Shown here: positions 37,719-61,482 of the stretch, piece by piece
Position numbering within the stretch: the stretch's first letter is position 1
Layout of the letters: the number at the start of each line of letters is the position of its first letter
Source: Bacteroidia bacterium
GTDB taxonomy: Bacteria; Bacteroidota; Bacteroidia; UBA4408
Direction of reading: 5' to 3'
DNA: 64,000 bases
Assembly: GCA_020845635.1 (NCBI GenBank)
Contig: JADLFI010000042.1
Span: 62,001 to 126,000 of the forward strand
Made by a program: the position numbers and the translations under genes
Notes under the pieces: model-generated
Databases searched by the model: none
What the model saw: the letters and a program-made list of their open reading frames with translations, nothing else
Told to the model about the DNA's origin: nothing

Positions 37719-38098
37719 CACCTACTTGCCTTTATTTATGGTTGTAGTATGCAAATGAACGAACTGCCTATGCTTAAAATATCTTGAAGGAAGTGAAAAG
37801 AATAATGCAAAGGAAACTTGCCATGCAACATCAAAAAAGGATGAAAAAATAATTTAGGAACATTATTTTATTTGCTTGCAACAAGCAAACAGGCATTGTT
37901 TTGAGCAATAAACCAAAAAATATAACTAAGAACAACTCATACAAGATAAATAACAACCACACAAACTCAATAAAATCCCACAATATAATTTATTTGTAAC
38001 TGAACTCCAGAAGCTTCATTCAACCTGCCAAAGGCAGACAGGCACAGGGTAAAATCAAAGCAGAGCTTGGTTTAAACCCTATATGTTAGTGGTAGTTT
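37719..38098. other. Non-coding stretch ending in repeat copy A
   Basis: The first 230 bp hold nothing recognised. From about 37952 it becomes similar to the stretch at 39432-39553, and from 38011 to 38056 the two are identical. See the repeat entries. Confidence 0.6.
38004..38089. repeat. Dispersed 3' repeat, copy A
   Basis: The 46-bp core 38011-38056 is identical to 39496-39541. With the ACTCC box before it the match covers 53 bp with two mismatches. After a 22-bp insert comes the shared CTATATGTTAG (38079-38089). The core contains the hairpin CTGCC-AAA-GGCAG (38025-38037). Weaker similarity extends left to about 37952 (ACAACCACACA and AAACTCAATAA blocks). The copy lies just downstream of the ATPase gene stop. 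Confidence 0.9.
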
Positions 38099-39304
38099 TT
38101 ATTCGTTCAGCAGCCAATCAATTACGTTCATTTTTTGAATACCGTCTATGTTCGTAATGTCGAAATCGAGTGTTAAAAGGTATTTCGGGTAGTTGTCTTT
38201 GATATTGCTAAATGCCGAAATTTCTCTTTTGTATGTTTTTTCGTCATTAACGGTAAAAGCAACCTGATAATATTCTCTTTCGTTATTGGACTTGTGTACT
38301 ACAAAATCAATTTCTTTGTCCTTATTTTTTCCTGCATACACTTTTCCGCCACGTCTTAAAAGCTCGAAATACACTACATTTTCAAGTTTATGTCCTAAAT
38401 CCGCATCGTGTTTATTAGTTGCTGTTATGTTTCTTAATCCCAAGTCCACCAAATAATATTTTTCGTTGGTCGTCAGCAATTCTTTTCCCTTAATGTCAAA
38501 ACGCGAAGCAGTATAAAGAATATAGGATTTGGTCAAAAAATCCAAATACTTGATAATGGTGTTGTGCGATATTTTTTTCTGTGAGTTTTTGTTGAGCTCC
38601 GTTGCAATGTTTGTAGGCGAAATGAACGAACCGACACTGTCAAATACAAAACTGATAACACGATGTAGGTTATGGATATTACGCAATTTGTAACGTTGTG
38701 CAATATCTTTGATAATAACTGTATCGTAAATGGATTGCAAGTAATCGTTTGACAAGTTTTCGCTGCTTTGAGCCAATGTAACAGCTTCGGGAAAACTGCT
38801 TGCATTGATATATTTACGGAAAAGACGGTCAATGTTTTTTTCTTCATTGTATGCCAATGCATATTCTTTGAAAGAATAGGGTTGTATGTTTATAGCGATA
38901 TATCTTCCAGTAAGAAGCGTTGCCAATTCGCTACTCAACAAATAAGCGTTTGAACCTGTAACATACAGGTCTATGTGTTTTTTTGTAAACAGGCTATTGA
39001 TGAGCTTCTCAAAATCGTTGACCAACTGCACTTCGTCCAAAAAAACGTAATGTTTTTTATCGGTTTTTATCTTTTTGATAATTTCGTCATAAAGTACTGT
39101 CCAATCCGTTAAATGCAGGTTTTCTCTTTCTTCAAAATTCAGAAAAATGATATTGCGGGGAGAAACTCCGTTTGCGGTCAACTCGTTTTTAAAGGCTTCT
39201 AAAAGCGTGGATTTCCCGCTACGCCTTATGCCGGTAACAACCTTGATGATGTTTTGATCTTTGAGCTGACGGAGCTTTTTCAGGTATGTTTCTCGTATTA
39301 TCAT
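38099..39304 (-). CDS. AAA ATPase with DUF4143 domain
   Basis: The 401-residue protein has a P-loop near its start (VVTGIRRSGKSTLL, about 21-34), Walker B HYVFLDEVQLV (about 90-100), sensor-like YVTGSNAYLL and the SSELATLLTGRYI region of AAA_14 ATPases. A winged-helix stretch (NTIIKYLDFLTKSYIL) leads to the C-terminal DUF4143 part with NVVYFELLRRGG, KEIDFVV and EYYQVAFTV, a pattern like the PD-(D/E)xK nuclease fold. The role of this very common family is unknown; genes of this kind move often. A perfect inverted repeat covers its promoter and related repeats lie on both sides. The DNA looks richer in CG than its neighbours by eye. Confidence 0.9.
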   Translation of the reverse strand: MIIRETYLKKLRQLKDQNIIKVVTGIRRSGKSTLLEAFKNELTANGVSPRNIIFLNFEERENLHLTDWTVLYDEIIKKIKTDKKHYVFLDEVQLVNDFEKLINSLFTKKHIDLYVTGSNAYLLSSELATLLTGRYIAINIQPYSFKEYALAYNEEKNIDRLFRKYINASSFPEAVTLAQSSENLSNDYLQSIYDTVIIKDIAQRYKLRNIHNLHRVISFVFDSVGSFISPTNIATELNKNSQKKISHNTIIKYLDFLTKSYILYTASRFDIKGKELLTTNEKYYLVDLGLRNITATNKHDADLGHKLENVVYFELLRRGGKVYAGKNKDKEIDFVVHKSNNEREYYQVAFTVNDEKTYKREISAFSNIKDNYPKYLLTLDFDITNIDGIQKMNVIDWLLNE

Positions 39305-39320
39305 TGCCTTTTACTTTATG

Positions 39321-39328
39321 CAAAGATA
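39321..39328 (-). promoter_or_regulatory. -7 box of the ATPase gene
   Basis: On the minus strand this is TATCTTTG, exact TAnnTTTG, 16 bp before the ATG. The inverted repeat begins 3 bp further upstream. Confidence 0.6.
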
Positions 39329-39331
39329 ATC

Positions 39332-39375
39332 GTTATTGACGAAAAATTATGTATGTTTCATTTTTCGTCAATAAC
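39332..39375. repeat. 16-bp perfect inverted repeat over the ATPase promoter (candidate operator)
   Basis: GTTATTGACGAAAAAT at 39332-39347 and its exact reverse complement at 39360-39375 flank 12 bp. The element covers the region where -33 recognition would occur, so a protein bound here would block or control the ATPase promoter. As RNA it could form a hairpin, but there is no T-run and the transcript should start below it. Confidence 0.8.
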
Positions 39376-39431
39376 AAAAATGTAATTTCTGATATTTTCT
39401 TTTTAAAACAATCGTTCTGAACTTTTTTAGA

Positions 39432-39553
39432 AAATCTGCTACAACACACAGAAAAAGTACTAAAACTCAATAAGAAATTTTACTCAAGACTCCGTAAGCT
39501 TCATTCAACCTGCCAAAGGCAGACAGGCACAGGGTAAAATCTCTATATGTTAG
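39432..39553. repeat. Dispersed 3' repeat, copy B
   Basis: This is the second copy of the repeat, with the 46-bp identical core at 39496-39541 and CTATATGTTAG at 39543-39553. It lies just downstream of the stop of the T9SS cargo gene (39565), the same position that copy A has relative to the ATPase gene. The cores are 1485 bp apart. Confidence 0.9.
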
Positions 39554-39564
39554 CAGTTTGGACA

Positions 39565-40710
39565 TTATTTTTTAACGATTTTAGTCTTCCAAATCTTATC
39601 ATTTTGAATTACTGTCAAATAGTATATTCCGCTTGCAAAATTCGAAATGTCAATTGAAGTATGGTTGGATGTTTCATATATTTCTTGGCCAATAGAAGAG
39701 TACACTCTGATTGTAAAATGCTCTGATGGATTGGGTAAACAAATTTGAAAAATATTTTCTGTAGGATTGGGATAAACATTAATATTACCTTTATTTATTT
39801 GTCCGTTGATACCGGTGGTAGCACCTGTTCGGTAACGTAAATAAATAGTATAAGTAAATGTAATGTCTTTTTGGTGATAATATATTTTTTGTTTGTCAGT
39901 TGTTAGGGTAGCAGCCTCCGGGAAATAACCATAGTTTGAATAAATGACTATTGGTAAACTAAACGTATCTGAAATGGTATTCCTCACAGAGACACATATT
40001 TCGGTATTATACCCTCCCTTTAAAAGTCTTGTGTAATAAAATTCTAATCCGTCATTTGTGATTTGCGGAGCATAAACAAGGTAGCTTGTGTCATTTATGT
40101 TTGTAAAGAGAGCATCGGAATTTACTGTTTTATTAAATGTGGAGTCATTTATTTTTTGAGCAACACCAAACTTAGTTTCGCAAGGCACACCAACACATTC
40201 AGCATAAGTGGGACCAAAATATGCATTGCTATAATACAGAAGGTTGCCTTGAAAATTAATTGCTGCATCCATAATTAACCAACCGGGGGTTTGAATATTG
40301 CAGGTGCCGTAAACCTGAGAAATATTACTGACGTTACCTGCAGTGTAAACTCCTCTATGCAAATTAGGAACATTTCGTAACGATGTCCAAAAGAAATTAT
40401 TTAATGAATCTAAAGAGGCTACCGCGTCTAGATGGTCAGGCGTGGGGTCATAACAACCTCCAACTAGTCCAATATAAGTAAAAGTTGAGTCATTCACCTT
40501 TATGGCATAATGTAAATTTGTGTTACCTCCAGAATTCAGTGAATTAAAAAACAGAGTATTGCCGTCAGGTGAAATAAACGGTTCCATTGCATCAAAATTC
40601 AACCCGGTTATGGTTACTTTTATTTCAGGCCCAAATGTCGGATATGTCTGTGAAAAAGCAGATAGACTCATTGCCGTCATCAAGGTTAGGATTAAAGTTT
40701 TTGCCTTCAT
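39565..40710 (-). CDS. Secreted protein with PD40-like repeats and T9SS type A sorting domain
   Basis: The start is set at ATG 40708-40710, where a clean signal peptide begins (MKAKTLILTLMTAMSLSAFSQ); the frame runs to 40791 but the extra part is not signal-like. The 381-residue protein has a WD40-like beta-propeller PD40 blade (AMEPFISPDGNTLFFNSL) and similar later ones (APQITNDGLEFYYTRL, AATLTTDKQKIYYHQK). The last 75 residues are a type A CTD (NVYPNPTENIFQI, RVYSSIGQEIYE, IDISNFASGIYYLTV, final KIVKK). It should be exported by the T9SS. Copy B of the 3' repeat follows its stop. Confidence 0.88.
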   Translation of the reverse strand: MKAKTLILTLMTAMSLSAFSQTYPTFGPEIKVTITGLNFDAMEPFISPDGNTLFFNSLNSGGNTNLHYAIKVNDSTFTYIGLVGGCYDPTPDHLDAVASLDSLNNFFWTSLRNVPNLHRGVYTAGNVSNISQVYGTCNIQTPGWLIMDAAINFQGNLLYYSNAYFGPTYAECVGVPCETKFGVAQKINDSTFNKTVNSDALFTNINDTSYLVYAPQITNDGLEFYYTRLLKGGYNTEICVSVRNTISDTFSLPIVIYSNYGYFPEAATLTTDKQKIYYHQKDITFTYTIYLRYRTGATTGINGQINKGNINVYPNPTENIFQICLPNPSEHFTIRVYSSIGQEIYETSNHTSIDISNFASGIYYLTVIQNDKIWKTKIVKK

Positions 40711-41132
40711 TATTTTTATTGTTAAAATTAACTGTTGTGTTGTGGAATCATCTTTATGCCTTACCACTAATGGCAGCATGTGAAAGAACACAAAGTAATT
40801 AACACAAACTGTTTATTATTTACGAAATAAAAATACAAAAAAAATGAAATATACATATCCTTGTGTATGCCAAAAATAATTCTTAAAAACCGCACACATA
40901 TTGAGTTTAAGAGCCTCGAAGGGTTTATTGAAAAGAGATAATACAGTAAGACTTATTGATGATTTTGTTGAAAAAAATTGAACTTGATAAATTATTCTTT
41001 ATCAATAAAACAGTAAAAGTTGATATAATGACGTTTAATCATAAAATGTTACGATAATATAGAAATATATGATTTTGGTAGAATTGTAATATATGTGTTG
41101 TTTTGGTTTTCTATTGACGCTTTAGCTTGTAT
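40711..41132. other. Intergenic region with a probable transposase fossil
   Basis: The leader of the T9SS cargo gene occupies the left part. The right part (40867-41057) holds protein-like pieces in different plus frames, described as a separate entry. The rest is AT-rich with nothing recognised. Confidence 0.5.
40867..41057 (+). pseudogene. Possible decayed transposase N-terminus (IS1182/IS4-like)
   Basis: Three overlapping plus-frame pieces join into one protein-like sequence. ATG 40867 gives MPKIILKNRTHIEFKSLEGF and then IEKR before a TAA. A shift gives RDNTVRLIDDFVEK. A second shift gives IELDKLFFINKTVKVDIMTF then NHKMLR and a stop at 41055-41057. The order xxNxVRLIDxFVExLxLxxL...MF.HKML resembles the beginning of transposases of the IS1182 group. 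No inverted ends or later transposase motifs are visible, so it is at best a small fragment. Confidence 0.35.
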
Positions 41133-61430: not shown

Positions 61431-61482
61431 ATCAGCAACAATATAATAATTTTAATAGTTATATTGTTGCTGATTTCTTTTT
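61431..61482 (+). terminator. Long rho-independent terminator after the gyrA-TPR transcript
   Basis: ATCAGCAACAATATAA (61431-61446) pairs perfectly over 16 bp with TTATATTGTTGCTGAT (61459-61474), loop 12 nt, then TTCTTTTT. Confidence 0.88.

Follow-up and report, generated by a model that had tools for sequence, protein, structure and literature searches.

A perfect inverted repeat over the promoter of a DUF4143 ATPase gene as the probable operator of a self-regulated, mobile single-gene unit

In the window analysed here, which is a 64,000-nucleotide stretch of a contig from a Bacteroidia bacterium, the minus strand carries a gene for a DUF4143 ATPase preceded by a long palindrome, described in an earlier note as a perfect 16-bp inverted repeat that lies 3 bp upstream of a -7 box and works as an operator (Table 1). 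The geometry was borne out exactly, given that both arms of 16 nt are complementary at 16 of 16 positions (100%, 0 mismatches) around a loop of 12 nt, and that, in the minus-strand reading, GAT comes directly after the inner arm, then the box TATCTTTG (39328-39321), and then, 17 bp on, the ATPase ATG at 39304. The consensus of the Bacteroidota -7 box is TANNTTTG. By our own estimate from the local A+T content, about 0.002 perfect 16-bp dyads with a loop of up to 30 are expected by chance per 64 kb. With up to 3 mismatches allowed, the complete dyad occurs a single time in the 3.05-Mb genome, which rules out a regulon of such sites, and it recurred convincingly only once in 99 related genomes, likewise adjoining a DUF4143 gene. 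Two lesser matches were discarded: an arm-like one at 38236-38251 (2 mismatches) falls within the ATPase coding sequence and is no more than chance expects, and a pattern match at locus L002, intragenic and with three mismatches, is attributed to chance. Elsewhere in the window, on the plus strand at 61431-61474, there is another perfect inverted repeat, ATCAGCAACAATATAATAATTTTAATAGTTATATTGTTGCTGAT, with arms of 16 bp and a loop of 12 nt, about 13 bp 5' of the position (about 61488) where a lipoprotein-like gene starts.

Table 1. Features at and around the inverted repeat, in window coordinates.
Feature	Position	Strand	Basis or remark
attC-like repeat downstream of the ATPase gene, cassette boundary	37929..38085	-	genome-wide repeat family
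ATPase gene, 401 aa, AAA_14 + DUF4143	38099..39304	-	Pfam, PADLOC, AlphaFold2 model
Codons of H247 and N248, recognition-helix residues co-varying with the operator in relatives	38561..38566	-	computed from ATG 39304
Bacteroidota-type -7 promoter box TATCTTTG	39321..39328	-	read from sequence
Promoter-proximal half-site ATTTTTCGTCAATAAC (minus-strand reading)	39332..39347	-	sequence, relatives
12-bp centre between the half-sites	39348..39359	-	relatives: length kept, sequence free
Promoter-distal half-site GTTATTGACGAAAAAT (minus-strand reading)	39360..39375	-	core TGACGAAAA kept in relatives
attC-like repeat upstream, after the stop of the T9SS-type gene 39565-40791	39429..39560	-	same repeat family

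The two attC-like repeats belong to a family of 24 copies in the genome, recurring in one orientation relative to genes and ending in GTTRGC-like and GYYAAC-like boxes. In contigs C10 and C13 (L237, L238), this family forms arrays with one repeat after each gene, and the array genes are rich in toxin-antitoxin functions, including Fic, HipA-like, MazF-like, and ParE/RelE-like genes. Since the ATPase gene lies between two of these recurring repeats, it appears to be a cassette of an integron-type array, with the same bracketing as integron cassettes having their own promoter, such as toxin-antitoxin cassettes. Unlike in integrons, a search of this assembly for an integron integrase gave nothing above the family cut-off, the best TIGR02249 matches over the 60 contigs remaining below the 265-bit threshold. 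By eye, an attC-like sequence is also present downstream in the relatives L117 and L118.

The naming of the gene as a DUF4143 ATPase was upheld by Pfam, which gives AAA_14 (PF13173, E 4e-33) and DUF4143 (PF13635, E 1e-18), and PADLOC classifies the protein as PDC-S01 (PDLC04787 over residues 1-400, E 3e-147). The AlphaFold2 model (mean pLDDT 83) has an AAA_14 ATPase core (about 1-185), a winged helix (about 210-290), and a PD-(D/E)XK-like end (about 303-380). The winged-helix-like part that had been proposed is therefore present in the model, where it consists of helices 210-222, 230-238, and 247-259, the latter being the recognition helix, plus a beta wing; residues 247 and 248 make up the first turn of the recognition helix. 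The nearest solved folds are those of the archaeal MNS-clade or STAND-like ATPases 2fna (SSO1545, Z 15.6) and 2qen (PABY2304, Z 15.4), aligned over about 260 residues of the ATPase and winged helix at 16-18% identity. Residues 303-401 gave no match in structure searches and may still have a known fold, while searches with the window protein returned no relative among PDB sequences and no NCBIfam family. The fold can also be likened to that of ORC/Cdc6, and in Orc1/Cdc6 it is the winged helix that binds DNA. PDC-S01 has been described as an ATPase fused to PD-(D/E)XK and as fourth in frequency among the defences of prokaryotes, with the status of a candidate, the validation of most PDCs being pending (PMC12988326). 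The window gene is the same AAA_14 plus DUF4143 single gene, whereas its clade has lost the ExK of the nuclease motif. In the classical DUF4143 group, E-x-D ... E-x-K is invariant (E315, D317, E331, and K333 of L049), and in the window clade, E331 and D333 are kept while ExK is replaced by Q347-V-A349, so that the intact PD-(D/E)XK motif is absent and nuclease activity is doubtful, the protein's place in the family being unaffected, since it is defined by the domains.

We found 53 relatives of the window ATPase, and half-sites of the TTATTGACGAAAAAT type lie upstream of all those at 60-91% identity, which include single genes from several orders in unrelated contexts. Every close orthologue tested thus has an element similar to the one in the window, as the earlier note had proposed to check. 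In this group, clade A, the span of the TGAC..GTCA core is constant at 34 bp, except for one case that is 1 bp shorter, and the loop sequence is free. In 20 of the 23 clade A genes, the half-site core and a -7-type box are a nearly fixed 4-8 bp apart, with the core directly upstream of the box and across the -33 to -7 spacer. That the orthologues have the dyad at a nearly fixed position over the promoter of the gene itself supports the reading of the repeat as an operator. Pairwise DNA similarity between relatives sets in at -62 to -80, where the dyad has its outer edge, and runs to roughly the stop codon, the genes that precede the dyad being unrelated from one relative to another, and therefore the transferred unit consists of the dyad, the promoter, and the ATPase gene only. 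Separately, at the locus L053 / L001 (G018:C16), a TTATTGACGAAAAAT-type dyad precedes a DUF4143 gene from another clade, and direct repeats of about 70 bp bracket the whole, which is perhaps a replaced cassette.

In a family survey of 79 DUF4143 loci from 23 Bacteroidota genomes, a start-site dyad score of at least 13 was reached by 24 of 78 DUF4143 genes against 3 of 139 other genes at the same loci (Mann-Whitney p=3e-18), and many of the surveyed DUF4143 genes start with long, often perfect dyads having arms of 13-30 bp and sequences that are nearly all different. Sister clades at 45-50% identity (28 further loci) carry dyads at the same position with other sequences. The expectation that the same symmetry would be found upstream of DUF4143 genes in Bacteroidota thus stood in part: the symmetry recurs, but its sequence is specific to each clade, which rules out one universal operator sequence, and two subfamilies are without it. 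These are the long subfamily of 430-450 aa, with no start-site dyad in the survey, and a gut Bacteroidales group (L129-L164, 43-47% identity), with no such dyad near the gene start; both rule out that every DUF4143 gene has a dyad and imply that self-control is not universal in DUF4143. Plasmid-borne relatives from Pseudomonadota and Acidobacteriota (L207-L214) have weaker dyads, which reach as far as the ATG and in many cases contain CCTTGCAAAT-like half-sites. That classical DUF4143 genes of different phyla share these half-sites suggests a common operator of older date. The scan of viral contigs gave few dyad-bearing relatives. Three viral contigs (L168, L169, and L171) have classical DUF4143 genes with CCTTGCAAAT-like half-sites too, in a dyad reaching up to the ATG. 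In a further clade (L264, L266, and L268; helix ID[IL]NTVYNYL), AACC[AC]TAAAAA sites precede the gene in direct, not inverted, order, and at L267 they form an inverted pair. On a Sphingobium herbicidovorans plasmid (L212), a lone DUF4143 gene sits reversed between traH and traF of a conjugative transfer cluster.

The operators change together with the recognition helix. Clade A combines the helix SHNTIIKYL with the operator TTGACGAAAA (SHNT going with TTGACG), clade B the helix H[H/N/R]xTVEKYL with ATCAAAAC (HH), ATTAAAAC (HN), or AGC[A/G]AAAC (HR), and clade C the helix DNKTVSKYI with TTCCTAAAAG, IDNKTV being paired with TTCCTAAAA. The resulting clade B rule, by which H, N, or R goes with ATC, ATT, or AGC, respectively, is concordant in 23 of 24 genes and held in 10 of the 11 genes read after it was formed: AGC is found at the HR loci L273 and L274 (another class), ATC at the HH loci L313, L315, and L317, and ATT at the HN loci L314, L316, L318, L319, and L330, all as the rule says. 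The exception, L329, has an HH helix yet the operator AGC, with the adjoining residue also changed, to N (N248), and given this gene the two-residue rule is incomplete. In clade A, L323 has SHHT (N248H) together with TTGCCG in both arms, and its near-identical sister L322 has SHNT together with TTGACA/TTGTCA. The tree, from which the winged-helix columns were left out, requires 4 changes of the helix residue and 5 of the operator in clade B, and when independent operator evolution with three states was simulated on that tree, the concordance of 23/24 was reached in 2 of 79,855 runs; an independent-pairs test offered 2 + 2 contrasts, too few for significance, and nearly all of its pairings went the predicted way. 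Genome G972 contains ATPases of types A, B, and C, every one beside an operator of the matching type, which is what insulated self-regulation would lead one to expect, and genomes G165 and G1075 contain two ATPase types each, with separate matching operators. This co-change of operator and helix indicates that the ATPase probably regulates its own gene, and it agrees with the earlier suggestion of the ATPase itself as a possible binder, because operator bases that co-vary with the start of the recognition helix are what direct binding predicts. The same covariation would also arise if the ATPase bound the dyad for a purpose other than transcription.

The symmetry of the repeat could also come from a role as RNA, either by terminating the upstream gene or by forming a hairpin in the 5' UTR, as its perfect 16-bp stem and its location between two same-strand genes might suggest. 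We consider this hardly credible. The stem is A+T-rich and has no T-run 3' of it in the gene direction, as an intrinsic terminator should, the dyad is upstream of the -7 box and hence outside the ATPase transcript, an attC-like repeat already follows the stop of the upstream gene, and the dyads of the relatives follow unrelated genes. Moreover, pair counts on the 23 clade B operators gave 91% pairing against 33-41% in slid controls, and five pairs are altered on both sides (for instance, T-A 14 to C-G 8, and C-G 13 to T-A 10), the specificity pairs switching only among Watson-Crick pairs and without G-T intermediates. Such symmetric changes speak for a pair of protein half-sites and against an RNA hairpin, which led us to reject the terminator or hairpin, and the dyad symmetry is thus kept up by selection; in clade A, the signal goes in the same direction and is weaker.

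The palindrome could instead be a recombination or transposition end, or a homing target, of the ATPase/PD-(D/E)XK protein, with its promoter position being incidental. This reading, which we regard as unlikely, fits the transfer of the unit between distant lineages, the coincidence of the 5' homology edge with the dyad, the near-identical second palindrome present no more than about 60 bp past the stop codon of six DUF4143 genes (L125, L040, L048, L063, L072, and L017), and also the helix covariation, which is compatible with a protein recognizing its own ends. It is opposed by the fixed register between dyad and -7 box, by the degenerate active site of the window clade, by the attC-like repeats, which already account for mobility in the window, and by the scarcity of downstream copies, found in 1 of 23 genes in clade A, 0 of 24 in clade B, and 0 of 8 in clade C. 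With matching end copies in 1/55 genes, a transposon with palindromic ends was rejected for clades A-C. Foreign genes are also often silenced or controlled by host factors, and the binding sites of regulators are usually palindromic, so that the dyad might be the operator of another, host regulator that controls the ATPase genes as invaders. We find this very unlikely, given that the operator sequence tracks the ATPase clade and not the host, that G972, G165, and G1075 hold two or three operator types beside the matching ATPase types, that the bases co-vary with the recognition helix of the ATPase itself, and that a dyad unique in the genome leaves no regulon to control.

Very probably, then, judging from the sequence comparisons, the dyad is the operator of an autoregulated, horizontally transferred single-gene unit and is bound by the winged helix of the ATPase that the unit encodes. 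The DUF4143 ATPase, as a dimer or in a higher oligomeric form, would occupy the two half-sites through its mid-protein winged helix, with H247 and N248 at the N-terminus of the recognition helix reading the specific 4-5 bp (GACG here) and the wing probably contacting the A-tract. Bound just upstream of the -7 box, over -33 to -7, the ATPase would most likely repress its own promoter, in line with the strict control that the earlier note read from the operator, since the simplest reading of an operator in this position is that it blocks RNA polymerase. Physical binding, the oligomeric state, and repression over activation are what we infer from these positions and covariations, and a modulation by ATP or by an infection signal could be added on the same terms. 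The palindrome and the gene travel jointly between hosts, here as an integron-type cassette, and the operator would survive the transfer because the sole factor that it needs is encoded in the unit.

Toxin-antitoxin operons, C proteins, and phage repressors are autoregulated mobile units. The window unit resembles toxin-antitoxin operons, restriction-modification C proteins, and phage repressors in having a palindromic operator over the promoter with the regulator inside the unit, and in diversifying its specificity, so that relatives in one cell avoid cross-talk; it differs from them in that regulator, ATPase, and nuclease-like domain form one polypeptide, with no separate antitoxin or C protein. 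The principle of autoregulation through a promoter palindrome is old. In the literature searched, which covered neither subscription journals nor most preprints, no operator or autoregulation of DUF4143/PDC-S01 was found, and as far as that literature goes, the assignment of autoregulation to these ATPases and the two-residue specificity rule are new.

Few uncharacterised proteins of Bacteria and Archaea are as common as the DUF4143 ATPases, which are listed as the defence candidate PDC-S01, and having a defined candidate site together with the two-residue rule makes their function testable in gel shift, specificity swap, and promoter reporter assays. With the promoter, one could also search for the signal that activates the ATPase, and the orthogonal set of self-operators may provide regulatory parts for Bacteroidota. 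Much more tentatively, we propose that DUF4143/PDC-S01 proteins might be one-protein regulator-effectors with a two-residue operator code and coexisting orthogonal specificities, in which the ATPase and PD-(D/E)XK-like part would be the sensor that lifts self-repression, for example at infection. If this were true, the operator would be a built-in reporter of the trigger for one of the commonest candidate defence families.
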